A stretch of DNA of 64,000 nt, taken from the IMG/VR virus record IMGVR_UViG_3300043449_002191, positions 62,001-126,000 of that record. One strand, 5' to 3'. How positions within the stretch are numbered: the stretch's first letter is position 1; each line of letters opens with the position of its first letter. This DNA is from a virus. Under the pieces are notes generated by a model. That model had not been told where the DNA came from. It was given only the letters and a program-made list of their open reading frames with translations, and made no database searches. Below are positions 2,315-50,553 of this stretch, piece after piece. The translations under genes and the position numbers were made by a program.

Positions 2315-2561
2315 CTTCAACCTCTTTTAAAGAATCCAAAAACTTCCAGAATATATGTAAGTGAAATTTACTAGGGCTCACTGGAGAGTATTCACCACAG
2401 TCTGGGCATCTATAGGCCACAATTCCATCATATATGCCAAGAAAGCCGCCGTCAATGCCTATTTCGCGTTTCCAGACATATGGGGGACTATAGTTGTGTT
2501 TAAGATCATCTGGAATTTCCTCACCAATCCAATTTGAATTACATATAGGACAGTTACTCAT
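2301..2561 (-). CDS. zinc-ribbon protein, copy A
   Basis: An 86-residue protein with two CxxC pairs: CPICNS at residues 4-9 and CPDCGEYSPVS near residue 53, separated by a conserved block containing HNYSPPYVWKREIGIDGG. This pattern occurs in many phages as an uncharacterised treble-clef or ribbon protein. It is nearly identical to the copy at 3229-3489. Its last codons (GAT GAA ACG AAG TGA) contain the start of the next KRSE gene. Confidence 0.8.
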   Translation of the reverse strand: MSNCPICNSNWIGEEIPDDLKHNYSPPYVWKREIGIDGGFLGIYDGIVAYRCPDCGEYSPVSPSKFHLHIFWKFLDSLKEVEDETK

Positions 2562-2660
2562 CTTCAGGCTCCCATAAGCATTCGCTAGATACTAAAGTAT
2601 TACCGTTATCTTGATCTATATACCTAATTGTTTCTGGGGGTAGCATGCCAGCTTTTTCTA
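2307..2660. repeat. duplicated block, copy A (pairs with 3235-3586)
   Basis: This block holds the zinc-ribbon gene copy A and the C-terminal half of the adjoining WEPE gene. It repeats at 3235-3586 in the same orientation with few mismatches, with a 928-base period. Similarity ends in the middle of the WEPE genes. Confidence 0.85.
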
Positions 2661-9308: not shown

Positions 9309-9527
9309 TTAATCCTCCCACTTATATTTATTTTCAATCCAAGCAAATGCTTCTACCCCATGAGGTATTACTTTAGTCCGAATGGGCGGCGGAACCATCC
9401 CCACCATAGATTCACAATGAGTCAATACAATTTCAGCCAATTCGTCAGAGTTAATATCATCACCTTGTCCTTCAAGGTATGTATCAATTGCCATTTTAAG
9501 CACCTTTAAAGCCTCGTCCCTTTTCAT
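9309..9527 (-). CDS. KRSE/WEPE-family mini-protein (paralogue 7, divergent)
   Basis: A 72-residue distant member located 5 kb from the others: MKRDEALKVLKMAID, then MVGMVPPPIRTKVIP, ending WIENKYKWED. The layout is the same, including the tail whose codons (TGG GAG GAT TAA A ATG) form the ribosome binding site of the next gene. A GGAG site lies upstream in the tail of the 33-residue gene. Confidence 0.75.
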   Translation of the reverse strand: MKRDEALKVLKMAIDTYLEGQGDDINSDELAEIVLTHCESMVGMVPPPIRTKVIPHGVEAFAWIENKYKWED

Positions 9528-9625
9528 ATTTGCTCCTTAATTAGGTAAATTATAGACCCAAGCAAGAAAAAAAGCAAAACTATCGTAATTAATAAGCCTG
9601 TTTCAATATTCCTGTCATTTTTCAT
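9524..9625 (-). CDS. 33-residue single-span membrane protein
   Basis: Frame MKNDRNIETGLLITIVLLFF then LLGSIIYLIKEQI. One hydrophobic helix flanked by charged ends. The start overlaps the upstream stop (ATGA), the stop overlaps the next ATG (ATATGA), and its AAG GAG codons give the next gene its ribosome binding site. Coupling on both sides supports it. Confidence 0.6.
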   Translation of the reverse strand: MKNDRNIETGLLITIVLLFFLLGSIIYLIKEQI

Positions 9626-10026: not shown

Positions 10027-10044
10027 ATATTCTCCTAAAAAAGT

Positions 10045-10233
10045 GAGAGGGCCGGACGCTACTCCGACTATGCCGTTCATTGTGCTTGTGCGACCACAAC
10101 TATCGCTTTGATGTTATCGCTACTTCGTAGCGGCGAGGCCCCAGCCGCTATTAGTGCGTGTCTCCAGTGGCCCTTGTTTCAGGTCTTTCTAATCGGAACT
10201 ACCGACTTCCACAGCTTTCCACGCCGCTCTCTC
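10045..10233. ncRNA. candidate structured RNA, strand unclear
   Basis: A 189-base stretch with about 56% GC in an AT-rich genome and no good coding frame. The ends pair: GAGAGGGC (10045-10052) with GCTCTCTC (10226-10233), eight pairs on the plus strand with one G-U. Internal hairpins: TTGTG/CACAA (10086-10099), CGCTAC/GTAGCG (10118-10132) or the alternative AGCGGC/GCCGCT (10129-10149), and TCGG/CCGA (10193-10205). It lies between two minus-strand genes. It matches no riboswitch, tmRNA, RNase P or intron core that I can recognise. Confidence 0.45.
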
Positions 10234-10247
10234 AATAATATAATATC

Positions 10248-10466
10248 TTAAAATTCTTTGCTAAGATAATACTCAGTATATGCAATTTCTCGGTCTAAAG
10301 CCTCTTTACACTTGTTAGATCCACAAGTTAAACTAAATAAAACAGCAGCTTGACCAGCAATAAAGGATTCTCCAATAACTCGTTCTACGGTTTTATTGCA
10401 ATAGGCGCAATTCATATTTGTTACGGGGTTAATGCCAACGGGTAGTATTACTAGTTTATTGTCCAT
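10248..10466 (-). CDS. zinc-ribbon-like protein, 72 aa
   Basis: Starts MDNKLVILPVGINPVTN; CAYC near residue 20 and CGSNKC near residue 48 form a likely zinc site. GGAGG is five bases before this ATG, so the slightly longer frame (to 10478) is rejected. First gene of the leftmost minus-strand block. Function unknown. Confidence 0.7.
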   Translation of the reverse strand: MDNKLVILPVGINPVTNMNCAYCNKTVERVIGESFIAGQAAVLFSLTCGSNKCKEALDREIAYTEYYLSKEF

Positions 10467-10547: not shown

Positions 10548-10576
10548 AAAAAAAGCCCCCTGGGGCTAAGGGGGCT
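10548..10576 (-). terminator. rho-independent terminator, minus strand
   Basis: On the minus strand AGCCCCC, loop of nine bases, GGGGGCT, then a run of Ts. No minus-strand protein gene ends here, so it most likely ends a short transcript from the TATAAT box at 10629-10634. Confidence 0.75.
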
Positions 10577-10623
10577 AAAAAAGGAGGGGCAAGACCTTTT
10601 ATATTATTAGGGGGTATTTCCTA
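10548..10623 (-). ncRNA. candidate small RNA, about 75 nt
   Basis: A minus-strand TATAAT box (10629-10634) and a strong minus-strand terminator (10548-10576) are separated by a stretch with no reading frame. The predicted transcript contains CCCCTCC, complementary to the GGAGGGG type of ribosome binding site. It could be a regulatory RNA, but only promoter and terminator geometry support this. Confidence 0.4.
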
Positions 10624-10628
10624 AACAA

Positions 10629-10634
10629 ATTATA
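10629..10634 (-). promoter_or_regulatory. TATAAT promoter box for the candidate small RNA
   Basis: The minus strand reads TTTTTGAGGTATAATTTG. The same TTTTTGAGGTATAAT precedes the gene ending at 49225. Confidence 0.45.
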
Positions 10635-10643
10635 CCTCAAAAA

Positions 10644-10655
10644 CCCTAATCTTTT
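10644..10655 (+). promoter_or_regulatory. candidate late promoter motif, copy 1
   Basis: CCCTAATCTTTT directly before the ATG at 10660, with only four bases between. No ribosome binding site is present, so this gene may have a leaderless mRNA. Confidence 0.5.
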
Positions 10656-10659
10656 CAGT

Positions 10660-11010
10660 ATGAACGATAAAAAACTTTTAGATATTGCAAAAAGAATTTT
10701 AGAATTGGCCAAGAATACGCCTGAAGTACTTGAAAGCACTGAGCTTTCTAAAATGGACCCTTCTAAAAAATATTTGCGTATCCGCCAAGATTGGAATACT
10801 GAGTATAAGCAAGGTGGTAAGCACTATAAGCTTCCGTTTAATACTTTGACTCATATCAATCAGTTGCCTCAAATTGATGCACATCACCAAGGCAAAAAAG
10901 TTTGGCAAGAATCTAGTACTCCCGACAAGAAGTGGGGAGAAGAAACTTATGAGATGCTACCGGAAGGCTCTTTAAAACTTGTTGGCGCTAACTACGACAC
11001 TAGTGGTTAA
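10660..11010 (+). CDS. hypothetical late protein, 116 aa
   Basis: Starts MNDKKLLDIAKRILELAKNT with an N-terminal helix and a polar C-terminal half. First gene of the tail-fibre block. It lacks a Shine-Dalgarno sequence and begins just after the CCTAATCTT motif. The longer, weaker alternatives on the opposite strand are shadows. Probably a virion-associated or late accessory protein by position only. Confidence 0.7.
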   Translation: MNDKKLLDIAKRILELAKNTPEVLESTELSKMDPSKKYLRIRQDWNTEYKQGGKHYKLPFNTLTHINQLPQIDAHHQGKKVWQESSTPDKKWGEETYEMLPEGSLKLVGANYDTSG

Positions 11011-11012
11011 TA

Positions 11013-11023
11013 CCTAATCTTAT
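11013..11023 (+). promoter_or_regulatory. candidate late promoter motif, copy 2
   Basis: CCTAATCTTAT begins two bases after the upstream stop. The next ATG is 66 bases further on, after a leader that includes GTAGGAG. Confidence 0.55.
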
Positions 11024-11089
11024 TATTGAGTTCCTGCTGTCAGAAATGCCAGTAGCTTTCGGCCAAATGTCCGTAAGGTAGGAGAAAAA

Positions 11090-11740
11090 ATGGCTTTAAA
11101 TAAGATAGACGTTCTAAGTCTAGGTCGTGGTAGTTTAAAGGATAATAGTAATTCTATTATTGCCTTTTCATCCAACAGTGAAGTTCAAACTTGGTCCAAT
11201 ACTACTACGTATGCCCAATACAATGTTGTTGAGCATTCAAGCAAAATCTACAGATCTAAAGTTGCATCCAATTTAAGCAATACTCCTGACGCATCCCCAA
11301 ATCAGTGGGAAACTCTTTATTCAGACCCAAAAGACGGTGACATCTGTTTCGTGATCAACGGAGCAAATTCTAATATTATGCAACGTGCTAATAGCGTTTG
11401 GGTTAAATATAGAGAAACAAAAATTCAAATCACTTTAAATGATGGTCAAATTTTACCTGCCGCTATTTTTACATACATTGGCAGTACTAACTATTTTTCT
11501 ACATTAGAATATACAATTAAAAGAGGTGCTGGCCACAATAGAAAAAGGGCTGGCACTATGAAGATCTTAAATGATGGCTCTAGTGATGTGGCCTATGATC
11601 ATGAGTTCACAGAAATCGGCGACGATGTTGATACTTGGATTACTCCAGTTATCTCTGGCGGAACAGTCCAGTTACAATACACATCAGGCTTTGAAGGCAG
11701 CTCAATCCAACTTGAATATAAACTTACAGGATGGCAATAA
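11090..11740 (+). CDS. tail-fibre or baseplate protein with carbohydrate-binding-like segment
   Basis: A 216-residue protein. Residues 33-75 have the spacing of a chitin-binding type 5/12 module (TWSNTTTYAQYNVVEHSSK, then NTPDASPNQWETLY). The C-terminal part is beta-rich (VISGGTVQLQYTSG, SIQLEYKLTGW). It heads the fibre operon behind motif copy 2 and a GTAGGAG site. It probably contributes to surface binding. Confidence 0.65.
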   Translation: MALNKIDVLSLGRGSLKDNSNSIIAFSSNSEVQTWSNTTTYAQYNVVEHSSKIYRSKVASNLSNTPDASPNQWETLYSDPKDGDICFVINGANSNIMQRANSVWVKYRETKIQITLNDGQILPAAIFTYIGSTNYFSTLEYTIKRGAGHNRKRAGTMKILNDGSSDVAYDHEFTEIGDDVDTWITPVISGGTVQLQYTSGFEGSSIQLEYKLTGWQ

Positions 11741-11955: not shown

Positions 11956-14900
11956 AACTCCACAACCATTAAATCAAGGTAGCGTAAAGCTATCTGAAGT
12001 ATCAATGGATACAGCTAGTGATCTATTGCAATCTCCTATCCACGATTCAGCCCTAAAAGTTACCGAGCAATTACTCAAAGTAACTGCTGACCTTTTAAGA
12101 CGACAGAGTTTTTTCTTGAGATCTGAAGGTCAAATGAAATGGGACGGTAACACTCTATTTTTTGACGAAAGCTCTATTGCTAATAATATCGCATTAGATA
12201 TTCTTCAAACAGAAAACAGTTCTCAACCAATTATCTCTATTAAAATGAATGGAGCTACTTCTGCTCCAGCTGTTGAGACAGAATTTAACTCAATTGCATT
12301 AGCTGATGGCGAAATGCTTTACCTTGAATTGGACCCAGCTATTGTAGCTGCTGCAGGTACATTACTTACTATTGAAAACAGTGTAGATTTTCCTTTGAGT
12401 GCCGCTGCTGGCAAAAGATTAGTTAGAACTACTATTGCTGCTGGTTTACCTACAGCCACAAGTCCAGTTGATCAGACTCCAGATCCAACTCCTGCCTCTA
12501 CTACTTATTATTTGCCGCTTGTAGCTAGAAGAGGTTCATACTTACAGTGGATTCCACACGGTATTTCTTGGCCAGCAGGTACATCTTCTCCTTTGGGTGC
12601 AGTTATCGTTGAAGGTTTCCAGGCTTATCCAGACCTTTTTGCAGATTCTTTTTTACAATTTACTTCTAAACTTATAGCGTTAGATGCTTTAGGCGGAGGG
12701 GTTCTTCTTTTAACTAACTCATTCGGTATAAGCGCATCAGTCACTATCCCCTCAAATGTCACTGTCTTAGGGCGTGGCGCTAAAACAGTTCTTACTGTAG
12801 CTGCTGGCGCTCAGATCATTATGAGCGAAAACTCTACTTTAGAAAATCTTAAAGTTGCAGTTGCATCAGATTTTAGTGGCGATGCTATTCATATGCTTGG
12901 AAGTAAAAGAGCTAAGCTTAAAAATGTCGTGGTAGACGTTTCTGCTGCAGTAGATCAGCCGCTTGAAGAAACTATTACATATAACGCTGCAGCATCGGTA
13001 TCAAATAAATTTGGCAGTACAGTTCTTGCTTTACTTGCTCTTTCTGATGGTAGTGTAATTTTAGGCGGTCATTTTACCAATTATAATGGTACAGCTGGAT
13101 TAAATTACTTAGTTAAACTTAACTCAGACGGAACACCTAATACAACTTTTAATACAAATGCTTCTTTAGGCTCTAAGTTTAATAATAGCGTATATGCTTT
13201 GTCTGCTTTATCTGATGGAAGCATTTTAGTTGGTGGATCTTTTACCAATTATAACGGGCAAAATGGTTGGAATAATTTAATTAAATTGTCGTCTACAGGA
13301 ATTGTAAATTCCACATTTAGTTCAAATACTTATCAAAAAATTCAACCAGTATCAGACTCAATTTCCTCTTCTATAAGATCAATTGCAGTAGACTCGTCTA
13401 ATAATATTTACACCTCTGGACAATTTAGTTTTATAAACAATAGCGATCAAGGCAGCACTACAACAGGCCCAATTACAAAAGATTCTTTTGGTAATTTTTA
13501 TTTTATAGGTAATAGTGGTATTACAATATATAAAACAGATGTGAATCGTGTAACTACTGTTTTTGCTTCTGGATTTACTGCCGCCATGGGTATTACTATT
13601 GATTCATCTGATAACCTTTACGTTTCTGATGCTGGAGCCCACGTAATTAAAAAAATTACCTCTGCTGGAGTTGTTTCTATTTTTGCAGGTGCTTCTGGGG
13701 TATCTGGATATGTAAATAATGCAAACCCTTTACTTGCTAGATTTAATGGTCCAAGGGGACTGTATGCTGTTGGTGTTGATGACGTATATGTGGCAGATAC
13801 TAGTAATCATGTTATTAGACGTGTCACTTCTGTCGGAGTAGGCACTGCTGTTGGTGCTGCTGCACCTACAGTAGCTTCTGGATATGTAAATAGTTCTACA
13901 AGTACTTCGGTTAGGTTTAATAATCCAAGCGGTGTAGTGGTTATTCCTGGTATGACTACGTATATGTACGTAACAGATACTAGTAATCACGTTATTAGAC
14001 GTACAAGCACATATATGGGATCTTCAATTACAACAACTGTTGCAGGTGCTGCTGCACCTACAGTAGCTTCTGGATATGTAAATAATGCCACAAGCACTAA
14101 CGTAAGATTTAACACTCCTCTTGGTATTGTTTTGGATTCTTCTGTTTCTCCTTACCAACTATATATTACTGATTCTAATAATTATGTTGTTAGAAAAATT
14201 GATCTTAGTACAGGAGCAACAACAACTCTTGCAGGTGCCGCTGCATCTACAGTAGCTTCTGGATATGTAAATAGTTCTATAAGTACTAATGTAAGATTTA
14301 GCTACCCATATGGAATTACGCTTTCTTCTGGCAGCCTTTATGTTTCAGATGGATCTGGTGTAATTAGACAAATTTCTACATCTACAGGAAGTACTATTAC
14401 TTATTCGGGGAATTTAAATGGGTATGTTTACAGAAATCTTGTAAAATTAAGCTCTGCAGGGGTAACAGACGCTACATACTCTACAAATACATCTTCGGGC
14501 GTATCATTTAATGAGTATATCAATGCATCTGCACTAGACTCATCAAATAATCTTTATATAGCCGGAAATTTTTCTGATTACAAAGGTGTGTCTGGAAGAA
14601 GCAAGCTTATAAAAGTAAATTCCAGTGGCGTTTTAGATACCTCATTTTGTGCAAATGCTTCAGATTCAAATAAATTTAACGGATCATTGCAATCAGTGGC
14701 AGTTCAAGCAGATGGAAAATTATTAGTCGGTGGATATTTTAGCGACTATGATGCAGCAACTGTAGATAATTTAGTTAGATTAAATGTCGATGGAACCGCT
14801 GACACATCTTTTTATACAAATGCTTCTATTGGTTCTAAATTTACAGGATATGTTAATGCGATTAAAGTCCAATCTGACGGCAAGATCTTAATTGGCGGAG

Positions 14901-18947: not shown

Positions 18948-19622
18948 ATGAGAAAACTACTATTTACCCTAGCTCTTCTTATATCCTGCCTTTCGCAGGC
19001 AAAACTTAAAATTGCCATATTAGATACTGGGATAAAGCCTGATAAGATAAAAGATCTTAAGCTTTGTCCAAATGAAAGTATTGATTTTACCAATTCCAAT
19101 TTAAATGATGACCATGGCCATGGCACCAACATAGCTGGTCTTATCTCCCAACAAATACCAAAAAATCTAGATTATTGCTTAGTTATTATTAAGGTCTTTG
19201 ATATTAATAACTTAGATAGTGCTATCGAGTCTACAATTAAAGGATTTAGATATGCACAGATGATTAGAGCTAATATCATTAATTATTCTGGCGGTGGAGC
19301 ATCTTCAGATAAAGAAGAAAAAGCCACTATAATAAACGCCTTAAATAAGGGTATTAAAATATTTGTTGCTGCAGGAAATCAAGGCAAAGATTTAGATGGT
19401 AATTGCGACTATTTTCCTGCCTGTTATGACAAAAGATTGGTTATTGTTGGGTCAAAAACTTCTAAAAATAAAATTTCTGAAAATTCTAATAGAGGAAAAG
19501 TGGTTTCTGTTTGGGAAATAGGCAAAGATAGAGAGGCGCTTGATATAGTACTATCTGGTACATCTCAAGCAACTGCAGTTGCCACGGGGAGATATGCATA
19601 TGAAAAACTTACTGGTAAATAA
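18948..19622 (+). CDS. secreted subtilisin-family serine protease (S8)
   Basis: A 224-residue mini-subtilase. Signal peptide MRKLLFTLALLISCLSQA; catalytic Asp26 in AILDTGIK, His58 in DDHGHGTNIAG, oxyanion Asn144 in VAAGNQG, and Ser206 in LSGTSQATA. The full triad is intact. No I9-type propeptide separates the signal from the catalytic core, which is unusual for subtilases. It is exported by prediction and may act in the periplasm or outside, for example during lysis or against surface proteins. The next gene overlaps its end and encodes a small exported protein. Confidence 0.9.
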   Translation: MRKLLFTLALLISCLSQAKLKIAILDTGIKPDKIKDLKLCPNESIDFTNSNLNDDHGHGTNIAGLISQQIPKNLDYCLVIIKVFDINNLDSAIESTIKGFRYAQMIRANIINYSGGGASSDKEEKATIINALNKGIKIFVAAGNQGKDLDGNCDYFPACYDKRLVIVGSKTSKNKISENSNRGKVVSVWEIGKDREALDIVLSGTSQATAVATGRYAYEKLTGK

Positions 19623-47159: not shown

Positions 47160-47473
47160 TATTCCTCCAGAGGCAATTGATCAAATCCAGAGCTTTTAAT
47201 AAACTCTTCAGATGCATCCTTACATATTAAAATTGCAGTTTCATTCGGCAAATTTAATGTAAGTGCTGATGTACATCCTATAAAAAACCCTAATTGAACA
47301 TTTTTAGGAATTAAAGCAGAAAGAGCATTTAATCTTTCGTTTTGATGATTTAAAATAAAAGAGAAAAGCAGCAATAAGACCGCAGTTGTAAATAGGCTTG
47401 CCTGTATTTTAGCTTTTTTAATTTCGCTAATATTTTGCCAAGCATTTTTGATTTTACTTAAAATGTTACTCAT
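47159..47473 (-). CDS. small membrane protein, 104 aa
   Basis: One hydrophobic span (SLFTTAVLLLLFSFILNH, about 27-44) after a basic N-terminus, and a second moderately hydrophobic part (VQLGFFIGCTSALTLNL). Starts within the chaperonin tail (8-base overlap). Not recognised. Confidence 0.65.
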   Translation of the reverse strand: MSNILSKIKNAWQNISEIKKAKIQASLFTTAVLLLLFSFILNHQNERLNALSALIPKNVQLGFFIGCTSALTLNLPNETAILICKDASEEFIKSSGFDQLPLEE

Positions 47474-49247
47474 TTTCTACCGATCCTCTCTGCCCTGTAG
47501 CAGCTTCGAATTGTCTTACAAACTTTTCTTCTTGTTTATCTGAATCATTATCCCTCTTAAAGGCAACAATACCGCCAAGCGTTCCAAGTAAGGATGCGAT
47601 TGAAATACTGTTTCTAATAGCTTCAAGTACTGCTGGCGCAGAATCTAATAAGTCATATGCTGGAACCCATTTTTCTGCTGACAGGTCATAGGTTAACGAA
47701 TCATCCTTTAAAATGTTGTAAATCTGAGTTAGAATTTCTTCTGGCACATACCCATAGTTTCTATATAAAGCCTTAACAGGATGAAGCAAGGATTCGCCTA
47801 AAATAAGAGCTGCAAGCTTTTTAGGCCAATTATCTGTAATCTTTTCTGCTCTTACTGTAAGCTCGGCAGCAATTCTTGTAAGAATATACCCACCACCTGG
47901 AACAGCACCATGCTTTAAGGCTCCTTTAATCGCCATCCAAGCGTCCTCAGCTCTATCACGCTTTTCTCTTGTTTCTCCAGACGATGGTCCAGAGATATTG
48001 AGTCTTACAATTCCAGCAGTAAGTTTACCAATTCTAACTTCCAAATCATTTAATTCGTAAATGCTTTCTGGCTTTTCTTTTTGCAGTTTAAGTTCTTCGA
48101 CTCTGATAGAAATAGCTTCTGGGTCTTCATCAGCAAAAACCATTGTTTTATATCGTGATACATCAATTTTCTTAACCCTGGAATTATTGCATACAAATTG
48201 TGGGTTAATATCAACAATTGGCCTGTCAATTGGATTAAACACTGGAGTTCCAGTATAAGCCTGCAAGTCATACAGGAAATTAGTTCTCCAGTTCTGGATG
48301 GCCTTTTCAGGAGTCATTAAAGGTAGGATTTTAACTTTAGAGTGGGGATGGTTCCAGTTTACGTGCAAGTCTCCAAGAACGATTTCAGAAAATCCATGGG
48401 CCACTAATACAATGTTTTTATCCTGTCTGTTTGTCTCATCAAAATATTCAGAAAGCTTTGTAAATGCTTCAAAAACTTGCGACATATCATTAATGTTACC
48501 GTCAAACAGGATCACAATTGGATTGTTTAATTCAACTCCATTACCACTCTTATTATTAATAAAGCCATTGGAAAAATTCCTACAAGATTCTTCATATCCA
48601 CGTTCTACGGTATACCCATTGATTCGCTCAACGATATATTTTGATGGACCTTGCATTTCTACAATAGTCATGTTCCCTTCTTCTCCGACAAGCTCAAGAC
48701 CTTCAATAATTGCGTCTGAAAGCTCTAAATCACCATTTCCAGATAAAGAAGCTACTTTATGTAAAACCTCTTTATAATTATCCCCGTTAATCTTAAGCTT
48801 ATATTTTTCTACAATCTCTTCCATTACAGGTACAAGCTTTTCCATTTCCCTAACGATCTTCTGAGGGCTAAGTCTTGGGTTATTTTTTGTGGCATCAGAT
48901 GTATATTCTGCAATTGCGCTCGAAAGGATTGTTGCTGTAGTAGTTCCGTCCCCAGCTTCATTTGCAGTTCTAATAGCAGCATCCCTTGCCGCCTCAAGGA
49001 TAAGCTGTTTAGTAGCTTCTTCATATCCAAGATTTTTAACAACAGTCACGCCGTCTTTTGTAATAATTGGCTTCATGTTAACTTCGGAGCGTTCGATCAA
49101 AACTTGACGACCACCTGGACCTAAAGTAGCTCCTACCATTTCAGCAATGTGAGATAGCGTTTTCACAACTTCATCCTGAAGCTTAGTGCTAGATGGAATC
49201 ATTACTTTTGCTGCAGATTTTGGTTTACCTACTTGAAACAGACTCAT
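47466..49247 (-). CDS. groEL: GroEL-type chaperonin
   Basis: 593 residues from the ATG with AAGGAG six bases upstream. ATP-binding signatures: ATLGPGGRQVLIE, ITKDGVTVV (Asp65) and EAGDGTTTATIL (Asp100, counterpart of GroEL Asp87). GALKHGAVPGGGYIL covers the C-terminal hinge and DAWMAI carries the second ATPase aspartate. The GGM tail is absent; the end is hydrophilic (AATGQRGSVENE). Phages such as EL, OBP and AR9 encode diverged chaperonins. Probably folds phage proteins, perhaps with the GroES-like gene at 53259. Confidence 0.92.
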   Translation of the reverse strand: MSLFQVGKPKSAAKVMIPSSTKLQDEVVKTLSHIAEMVGATLGPGGRQVLIERSEVNMKPIITKDGVTVVKNLGYEEATKQLILEAARDAAIRTANEAGDGTTTATILSSAIAEYTSDATKNNPRLSPQKIVREMEKLVPVMEEIVEKYKLKINGDNYKEVLHKVASLSGNGDLELSDAIIEGLELVGEEGNMTIVEMQGPSKYIVERINGYTVERGYEESCRNFSNGFINNKSGNGVELNNPIVILFDGNINDMSQVFEAFTKLSEYFDETNRQDKNIVLVAHGFSEIVLGDLHVNWNHPHSKVKILPLMTPEKAIQNWRTNFLYDLQAYTGTPVFNPIDRPIVDINPQFVCNNSRVKKIDVSRYKTMVFADEDPEAISIRVEELKLQKEKPESIYELNDLEVRIGKLTAGIVRLNISGPSSGETREKRDRAEDAWMAIKGALKHGAVPGGGYILTRIAAELTVRAEKITDNWPKKLAALILGESLLHPVKALYRNYGYVPEEILTQIYNILKDDSLTYDLSAEKWVPAYDLLDSAPAVLEAIRNSISIASLLGTLGGIVAFKRDNDSDKQEEKFVRQFEAATGQRGSVENE

Positions 49248-50553
49248 TATATGCTCCTTCATAATAATCAGTTTTACCGAACTCTATGTTTTTAAATTCT
49301 TTTAAAAATTGTTTAGCCTGCTCTTTTAACCAGAGTCTATCCTGCCTTACTGTTTCAGAGTTTGCTATCTTACTTAACTCGCTATGCAAGAATTTGAACA
49401 CCTGATAAATCTTGCCAGTTTCATGCTGCTCAAAAACCTCTTTAACAGTGGCTCCAAAATGCATTTTAATTACGTTTGGTATCATATGGCCAAACTTCTG
49501 TATAGCCTGCATCCTAATGTAAAGCTTTGGATTAGTATATTTACAGAGATCGTAGTTACCATTTGCTACAGGTCTAGCTTTAGGGATATATTCCACCTGT
49601 TTTACAGATTCGCCATTCTTAAATATATATTTAACCTTTCTAACCACATTTGCATAGGCAACTTTGCTAGCTTTTCTTTTCTTCCATACAGCAAGCTCTC
49701 TTTTGTATCCAAGAACCTTTAATCCGTCATTACCTTTGGTTCCGTACTCTCTTTCGTTAACCCACTTAGGGTACATATCTATAAACCATCGGTCAACTAA
49801 TCCAAGTTCTCCAATTTCCATAAGCTCGTACATATCGCCAGTTTTGATTTTTTCAATCTGTTTAGATGCATTTTTAATGGCTAGACTTTTTAAATATTCT
49901 GATTCGTCTAAACCTATAAAATCAAAGCTCATTCTTTTTAATGAAAATGGGGTGTGATTAATAAAAGGCAAGTCTTTTTGCTTAACTTCATTTCCACCAT
50001 TTAAAGCAAGGCCAAGCCAAACTCTAATAATTCTATCCGAAGTACACCCACGCTTTCTGTTGTCAAACTTTTTTACGCTTGGTTTTGTAACAATATAAGA
50101 TGCAATAAAGCCTTTTTTTTCTAAATCAGCAATAATATTAGTAACTTGTCTGCCAGATATTTTTAATATTTCAGCTATACGATTGTTGTTGATTTTTGTA
50201 AGGCCAGAATTCTGAAGGCTTCGTGCTAAAAGAATCCCATATACACGTCTATGGTTTTTATGCTTTTCTGTTGGGTATACTGCTGTTATTAATGGAATTT
50301 TGCCTGCTGATGGAACTTCTGTTTTTTTACATTCATTTGATAAGATGACTCCAGCAGTATTATCTGAGAAGATGTCACTTACAAACTTGTTTTTTGGAGC
50401 TACAGTTTTAATAACTTTAACCCTATGCTTAATACCAACTTCATTTGTTCGATCTTCCCACTTAGAATCCAGGTAGACTTCTGAACTTAATTCAAAATCC
50501 TCTCGACTAAGACCAATGGCTACGTTTTTATACTGGTAAACAAATGATTTCAT
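49225..50553 (-). CDS. winged-helix DNA-binding protein, possible replication initiator
   Basis: 442 residues from the ATG six bases after a TATAAT box. The segment RIAEILKISGRQVTNIIADL followed by EKKGFIASY is a winged-helix element. The remaining 300 residues are basic and not recognised. Phage initiators often have such a domain, and its gene faces a helicase gene across a 219-base AT-rich gap. A TTG at 50595 gives a longer frame, but the promoter overlaps it. Confidence 0.7.
   Translation of the reverse strand: MKSFVYQYKNVAIGLSREDFELSSEVYLDSKWEDRTNEVGIKHRVKVIKTVAPKNKFVSDIFSDNTAGVILSNECKKTEVPSAGKIPLITAVYPTEKHKNHRRVYGILLARSLQNSGLTKINNNRIAEILKISGRQVTNIIADLEKKGFIASYIVTKPSVKKFDNRKRGCTSDRIIRVWLGLALNGGNEVKQKDLPFINHTPFSLKRMSFDFIGLDESEYLKSLAIKNASKQIEKIKTGDMYELMEIGELGLVDRWFIDMYPKWVNEREYGTKGNDGLKVLGYKRELAVWKKRKASKVAYANVVRKVKYIFKNGESVKQVEYIPKARPVANGNYDLCKYTNPKLYIRMQAIQKFGHMIPNVIKMHFGATVKEVFEQHETGKIYQVFKFLHSELSKIANSETVRQDRLWLKEQAKQFLKEFKNIEFGKTDYYEGAYNESVSSR

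Follow-up and report, generated by a model that had tools for sequence, protein, structure and literature searches.

The window analysed here is a stretch of 64,000 nucleotides (nt), bases 62001-126000 of a 157,341-nt phage record in IMG/VR (IMGVR_UViG_3300043449_002191). The element under study is a short island in the gap between two small genes, both on the minus strand (Table 1). An earlier note, made from the letters of the window, had described this island as GC-rich, devoid of a plausible reading frame and set between small minus-strand genes, and all three points were borne out. The GC content is 56% over 10043-10231 against ~35% in the surrounding DNA, and the RNA shares the strand of both flanking genes. 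The sole sense open reading frame (ORF) across the island merely extends the downstream gene in frame; the ribosome-binding site (RBS) of that gene, AGGAG (10036-10032), and its ATG (10026) both lie 3' of the element. Judged by its homologues, the island encodes a structured RNA of a previously uncatalogued family.

The earlier note had left the strand unnamed. Conservation among the homologues follows the minus strand, which by this evidence is the strand of the RNA (10234→10037), and the plus-strand reading was ruled out. The eight-pair closing stem that had been proposed does form on the plus strand (10045-10052 with 10226-10233, one G-T included), but on the conserved strand the stem has 7 pairs and one bulged A. 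The folding energy of the single sequence was unremarkable against shuffles (z = -0.74 for the minus and -0.81 for the plus strand). Because this energy is ordinary, a fold drawn from the window alone would not be evidence, and the case rests on the homologues. All four helices of the family, P1 to P4, are nonetheless already present in the minus-strand centroid fold of the window sequence.

A DNA search within the same genome located another site, with 73% identity to query positions 3-91, which consists of two tandem copies, giving this genome three in total. The blocks common to these copies are GCGUGG-AAGCUGUGG and CCACUGGAGACACGC, together with a 3' hairpin carrying GUAGCG in its loop. 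Scanning IMG/VR for the 15-base block returned 99 stretches, about half of which carry the whole motif in the correct order; the others were taken as chance matches to the pattern and reused as controls. Further members came from a scan with a second block and from two gapped patterns, IMG/VR being scanned by exact patterns only. The family amounts to 82 distinct copies, on ~70 IMG/VR phage contigs and one phage contig of a metagenome-assembled genome (MAG). The covariance model of the family, R1, recovered 60 of the 66 records from the pattern scans and had no match in 642 kb of other phage DNA. Run against the window with cmsearch, it matched 10043-10231 with 58.4 bits and E=1.4e-12.

Four helices are common to all members: the closing stem P1, the arm formed by P2 and P3, and the hairpin P4, which abuts P1. 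The P2/P3 arm encloses a near-invariant internal loop with the core GCGUGG[A/G]AAGCUGUGG…CCACUGGAGACACGC, and the P4 loop has the consensus AGU[A/C]GCGN, in which a U-N-R sequence marks a possible U-turn. In the founding alignment of 48 members, most rows of which had been shortened in their variable domains as a way of anchoring it, 98.8% of the cells were paired, with 199 two-sided changes against 52.7 after shuffling and a covariation score of 0.554 against 0.151. When the partner was slid by one column, pairing fell to about one third. The alignment of all 82 copies gave 98.6% paired cells, 352 two-sided compensatory cells against 84.9 shuffled, and a score of 0.570 against 0.155 shuffled and at most 0.119 when slid. 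In this larger set two-sided changes occurred in all four helices and at 18 of the 20 pairs. Covariation was seen at all 6 modelled pairs of P1 and all 5 pairs of P4, and RNAalifold, unaided, recovered exactly the same 20 pairs. At nearly every position of P1 all four Watson-Crick pairs are used and, because P1 played no part in picking the 48 founding members, its covariation is unbiased. Copies found by the model only (e.g. L160, L161, L162 and the second copies in L008, L030 and L032) are more varied in P2/P3 and are still paired.

Table 1. Features of the RNA copy and its flanks, numbered from the first base of the window
Feature	Position	Strand	Basis or remark
Whole noncoding RNA gene body, P1 to U-tract	10037..10234	-	cmsearch with R1
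-35-like hexamer TTAGCA	10259..10264	-	16-nt spacer, 9/12 consensus match; family-wide promoter peak here
-10-like hexamer TATATT	10237..10242	-	5 nt upstream of modelled P1 start
P1 5' strand UGAGAGAG	10227..10234	-	bulged A at 10228; partner 10044-10050
P2 5' strand GCGUG	10220..10224	-	partner 10156-10160; two-sided changes in divergent copies
Internal loop, 5' side, GAAAGCU	10213..10219	-	near-invariant; A10218 covaries with A10069, non-helical
P3 5' strand GUGG	10209..10212	-	partner 10167-10170
P3 apical domain, hypervariable, 38 nt	10171..10208	-	members share almost no sequence
Core 3' half CCACUGGAGACACGC (P3', loop UGGAGA, P2')	10156..10170	-	exact match
Linker P2 to P4, hypervariable, 86 nt	10070..10155	-	contains the two exclusive hairpins of the earlier note
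P4 hairpin GUCGG-AGUAGCGU-CCGGC, conserved loop	10051..10068	-	A10069 immediately before; stem covaries
P1 3' strand CCUCUCA	10044..10050	-	pairs with P1 5' strand
U6 tract, terminator-like end	10037..10042	-	immediately 3' of P1; family T peak at +3 to +5
Downstream small gene, 134 aa	9622..10026	-	RBS AGGAG at 10032-10036; no Pfam or PHROGs match
Upstream small gene, 76 aa	10248..10478	-	end 13 nt short of P1

Comparison with known classes gave no assignment. At the Rfam 15 gathering threshold neither the window nor 13 loci had a match, ordinary transfer RNAs (tRNAs) aside; at E<=5, 12 member loci had none, and at E<=10 the window region gave chance matches only. ARAGORN and Rfam found no tRNA or transfer-messenger RNA in the window and none at the RNA positions in 17 loci, and in the open-access literature no paper was found that gives the core sequence or describes such an RNA. 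A known Rfam class and homologues lacking the pairing were the two outcomes that the earlier note had named against its own proposal of a new structured RNA. Neither was found and the proposal stood, strongly supported by the match to R1, the 82 distinct homologues with compensatory changes in four helices and the lack of an Rfam family.

When columns were ranked by mutual information, ten pairs of P1 and P4 came at the top and the next was column 17 with column 716. Column 17 is an internal-loop base (A or G) and column 716 is the base just 5' of P4. An A at column 17 goes with A in 38 of 41 copies, and a G goes with G or U in 23 of 28 (38:3 against 5:23); the copy in the window belongs to the A/A type (A10218, A10069). 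Column 17 has no link with the choice of A or C in the P4 loop, and mere lineage is therefore disfavoured as the source of the signal. From this covariation, the P2/P3 arm very probably folds back to dock against the junction.

The family might also be a new ribozyme, with an active site built from the internal loop, the P4 loop and the base that precedes P4, which would cleave or process the RNA itself. The many invariant unpaired bases, the conserved hairpin loop and the tertiary contact close by would suit such a role, the variable peripheral domains resemble those of self-cleaving ribozymes, and no protein partner was seen. However, the known ribozyme classes in Rfam yielded no match, none of the invariant positions falls where cleavage would be obvious, and a promoter and a U-tract (below) would already set the ends, making cleavage needless. 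We consider a catalytic role improbable.

Outside the core, members have almost no sequence in common in the P3 apex (median 40 nt) or in the linker that joins P2 to P4 (median 63 nt). On average, these domains fold more stably than shuffled versions (mean z -1.02 for the P3 apex and ~-0.8 for the linker) and are GC-richer than their surroundings in 71 of the 82 copies. The earlier note had suggested that two mutually exclusive hairpins, CGCTAC-TTC-GTAGCG (10118-10132) and AGCGGC-...-GCCGCT (10129-10149), could act as a switch. Both hairpins exist, but they lie in the linker, and because linker sequence is unrelated among members they are kept in no homologue, leaving the switch unsupported. 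Exact tRNA T-arms occur within the variable domains of 4 of the 82 members (in the P3 apex of L034, L047 and L126 and in the linker of L041) against 0.025 expected; despite this far-above-chance count, a tRNA-like nature was rejected as a family trait. In one member (L102 1537-2090, +) the P3 loop holds an insertion of ~400 nt with hairpins that resemble, by eye, the ends of IS200/IS605 elements, and the RNA seems to tolerate insertion there.

The RNA-positive contigs range from 8 to 165 kb and come from unrelated phages. The nearest terminase of a cultured phage is that of Myxococcus phage Mx1 (33% identity), and the Mx1 genome, searched for the family, has no copy. At the sensitivity used, searches with the 61-nt core consensus gave no convincing match among 50,697 phage records and 72,556 plasmids. 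Among 84,980 bacterial and archaeal genomes there was one match, in a Dependentiae MAG, on a contig whose phage genes include an integrase and, by eye, a DNA polymerase and a primase. With a copy in 1 of 101 genomes, and that one on a contig bearing phage genes, Dependentiae was rejected as the host lineage. A subtilase family, identified from Pfam, occurs in 10 RNA-positive groups and in 0 of 135 control contigs, which suggests a common host group for which the subtilase is a possible marker. The window encodes a member of that subtilase-like family at 18948-19622 (+).

Six related large phages carry the RNA at differing places, save one orthologous pair, and copies therefore come, go or move. 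The orthologous pair, G000 and G009, is a tandem pair with an adjoining gene 55% identical; copy 1 retains much of its linker, and in copy 2 P1 is identical and the core kept, with an unrelated linker. A test for insertion boundaries around the window copy found no IMG/VR relative of the downstream gene. A rival reading is a mobile or guide RNA (a bridge RNA, retron RNA, OMEGA guide or homing element) with programmable variable domains. In its favour are the differing genomic places, the domain replaced between the G000 and G009 orthologues, the tandem pairs and a closing stem around two hypervariable domains. The IS110 bridge RNA is likewise a folded noncoding RNA with variable loops (PMC11208160). 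It depends, however, on the IS110 recombinase, and the IS110 transposase domain (PF02371) was found in 0 of 33 RNA-positive records. The same records had no reverse transcriptase (RVT_1), against a retron, and no TnpB (PF07282; IscB itself was not searched), each domain being detected in its control. The variable domains are also of differing lengths and folds, in contrast to short guide loops, and we regard a mobile or guide RNA as very unlikely.

To look at transcription, we scored matches to TTGACA-N16-18-TATAAT relative to the first base of P1. A sigma70-like promoter peak was found in which the end of the -10 box lies 7 nt upstream of P1 (z=8.1 relative to 230 other offsets). At that place 13 of 76 copies reached 9/12 or better, whereas windows of the same size elsewhere would give 1.3 and never exceeded 4. 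Across the family, T is most frequent 3-5 nt past P1 and a U-tract immediately behind P1 is common; the window copy has both a promoter-like TTAGCA-16-TATATT before P1 and U6 after it. Because the promoter and the T-tract are enriched at fixed positions, a transcript that begins and finishes at P1 is the most economical interpretation of many copies, in which the RNA is most likely its own transcription unit. Further upstream, at 10554-10576 (-), lies a terminator-like hairpin of 8 bp with a T-run, between convergent or divergent gene blocks.

Of 71 copies, 66 have a neighbour on their own strand on at least one side, and only 5 are antisense to both neighbours. The reading of a cis-acting leader, a riboswitch or attenuator controlling the next gene (here the 134-aa ORF), draws on the many copies with a same-strand gene and an RBS 15-25 nt past P1, which brings P1 near the RBS, and on the pocket-like conserved internal loop, which would suit a ligand. 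The downstream genes, however, are of many kinds (GroEL-like, primase-like, phosphoesterases, tiny ORFs) with only two homologous pairs among 31, and in 15 of 71 copies the downstream gene is opposing. As the downstream genes are mostly unrelated, these 15 convergent and some copies in tandem, a cis-regulator is unlikely; no conserved alternative pairing with the RBS was seen either, and the proposed switch hairpins are not conserved. By eye, a GroEL-like gene lies directly downstream of the RNA in L082, and the window has a phage GroEL-like chaperonin at 47466-49262 (-).

Some copies of the RNA adjoin another recurrent element with paired parts, TGAAUGAA[stem]...[stem]UUCCUUGAG, whose stem covaries. 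It lies in L007 at 2506-2582 (+), in L081 on the reverse strand at ~9508-9600, in L032 on the reverse strand at 1959-2043 and in L071 at 13961-14043 (+). A pattern scan of the IMG/VR stretches examined found it in these four phages only, always adjoining an RNA copy, and it is probably a second RNA.

Considering the leads together, we favour, as the probable reading, that the window copy belongs to a new family of stand-alone, trans-acting phage noncoding RNAs with an invariant binding core. Host RNA polymerase would make a transcript of ~130-260 nt with both ends at P1, and the transcript would fold compactly with the P2/P3 arm docked. The RNA would then act in trans through its invariant core, which would be presented to a molecule from either host or phage, most likely a protein and failing that a small ligand. 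Scaffolding and stability would be provided by P1, the P3 apex and the linker, and tandem copies would give a higher dose.

Several observations weigh against this proposal. Strong promoter matches occur in a minority of copies, and many may ride on operon transcripts. The near-invariance of the core is partly ascertainment, the search patterns having fixed core strings, and the Fisher p of ~1e-10 for the non-helical covariation ignores the relatedness of the copies. No nearby protein family absent from the controls exceeds 10 of 73 positive groups. No protein partner emerged from co-occurrence, the shared families resembling markers of phage lineage or host, such as the subtilase.

By analogy, the core could instead be an aptamer of a stand-alone sponge that soaks up a host signal molecule, e.g. 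a defence nucleotide. The family's own promoter, tandem copies, invariant internal loop and independence from neighbours would agree with this, and Bdellovibrio merRNA, a stand-alone structured RNA without a regulated gene that is proposed to store or sponge cyclic di-GMP (PMC3627812), is a precedent. In merRNA the aptamer is a known cyclic di-GMP riboswitch domain, whereas the new family matches no riboswitch and has no likeness to Rfam riboswitch aptamers. The conservation could equally serve a protein, and a sponge is doubtful next to the trans-acting RNA with a binding core.

Other RNAs share some of these properties. Y RNAs, the bacterial and phage partners of Ro60, have paired ends, a variable loop and an occasional tRNA-like part, and their stems are conserved in sequence for Ro binding. 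P1 of the new family differs in being free to vary in sequence, and a Ro60/TROVE protein was found in only 1 of the 33 RNA-positive records, which speaks against a Y RNA. That record, G012, encodes the phage Ro60/TROVE protein at 10618-11481 (-), ~7.5 kb from its RNA copy. GOLLD, ROOL and OLE RNAs are several hundred nt long, whereas the new family has a core of ~80 nt plus variable parts and no Rfam model matches it. All three are conserved, structured RNAs of unknown function that came from comparative genomics (PMC12286853).

T4 RNA C and RNA D (the species 1 and 2 stable RNAs) are adjacent phage-encoded RNAs of 119-139 nt whose function is unknown (PMC9697503). RNA C has a tRNA-like T-arm, as do 4 of the 82 family members, but the two T4 RNAs are located in a tRNA cluster and RNA C is without the GCGUGG...CCACUGGAGACACGC core. 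In the T4 stretch with rnaC and rnaD (L196 909-1172), RNA C has a very stable fold (z -4.6), two occurrences of AGUAGCG and a T-arm that matches exactly. Both T4 RNAs were nevertheless rejected as relatives, R1 finding nothing at E<=10 in this stretch; they are nearest in kind, not in sequence.

Taken together, the RNA class is real and new. Stand-alone phage RNAs of unknown function, such as T4 RNA C and D, have long been known, and the novelty is the class itself. More tentatively, it is possible that these phages carry an RNA machine, with a docked core and its own promoter in one to three copies, that binds and disables, or hijacks, a conserved host component (a defence signal, a nuclease or a polymerase), its other domains diversifying freely. 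The family makes sharp predictions that can be tested, namely where the transcript begins and finishes, the four helices, the single tertiary contact and a core with some binding partner. Structured noncoding RNA classes this conserved are rarely found, and most of those that have been studied bind something important or are catalytic.
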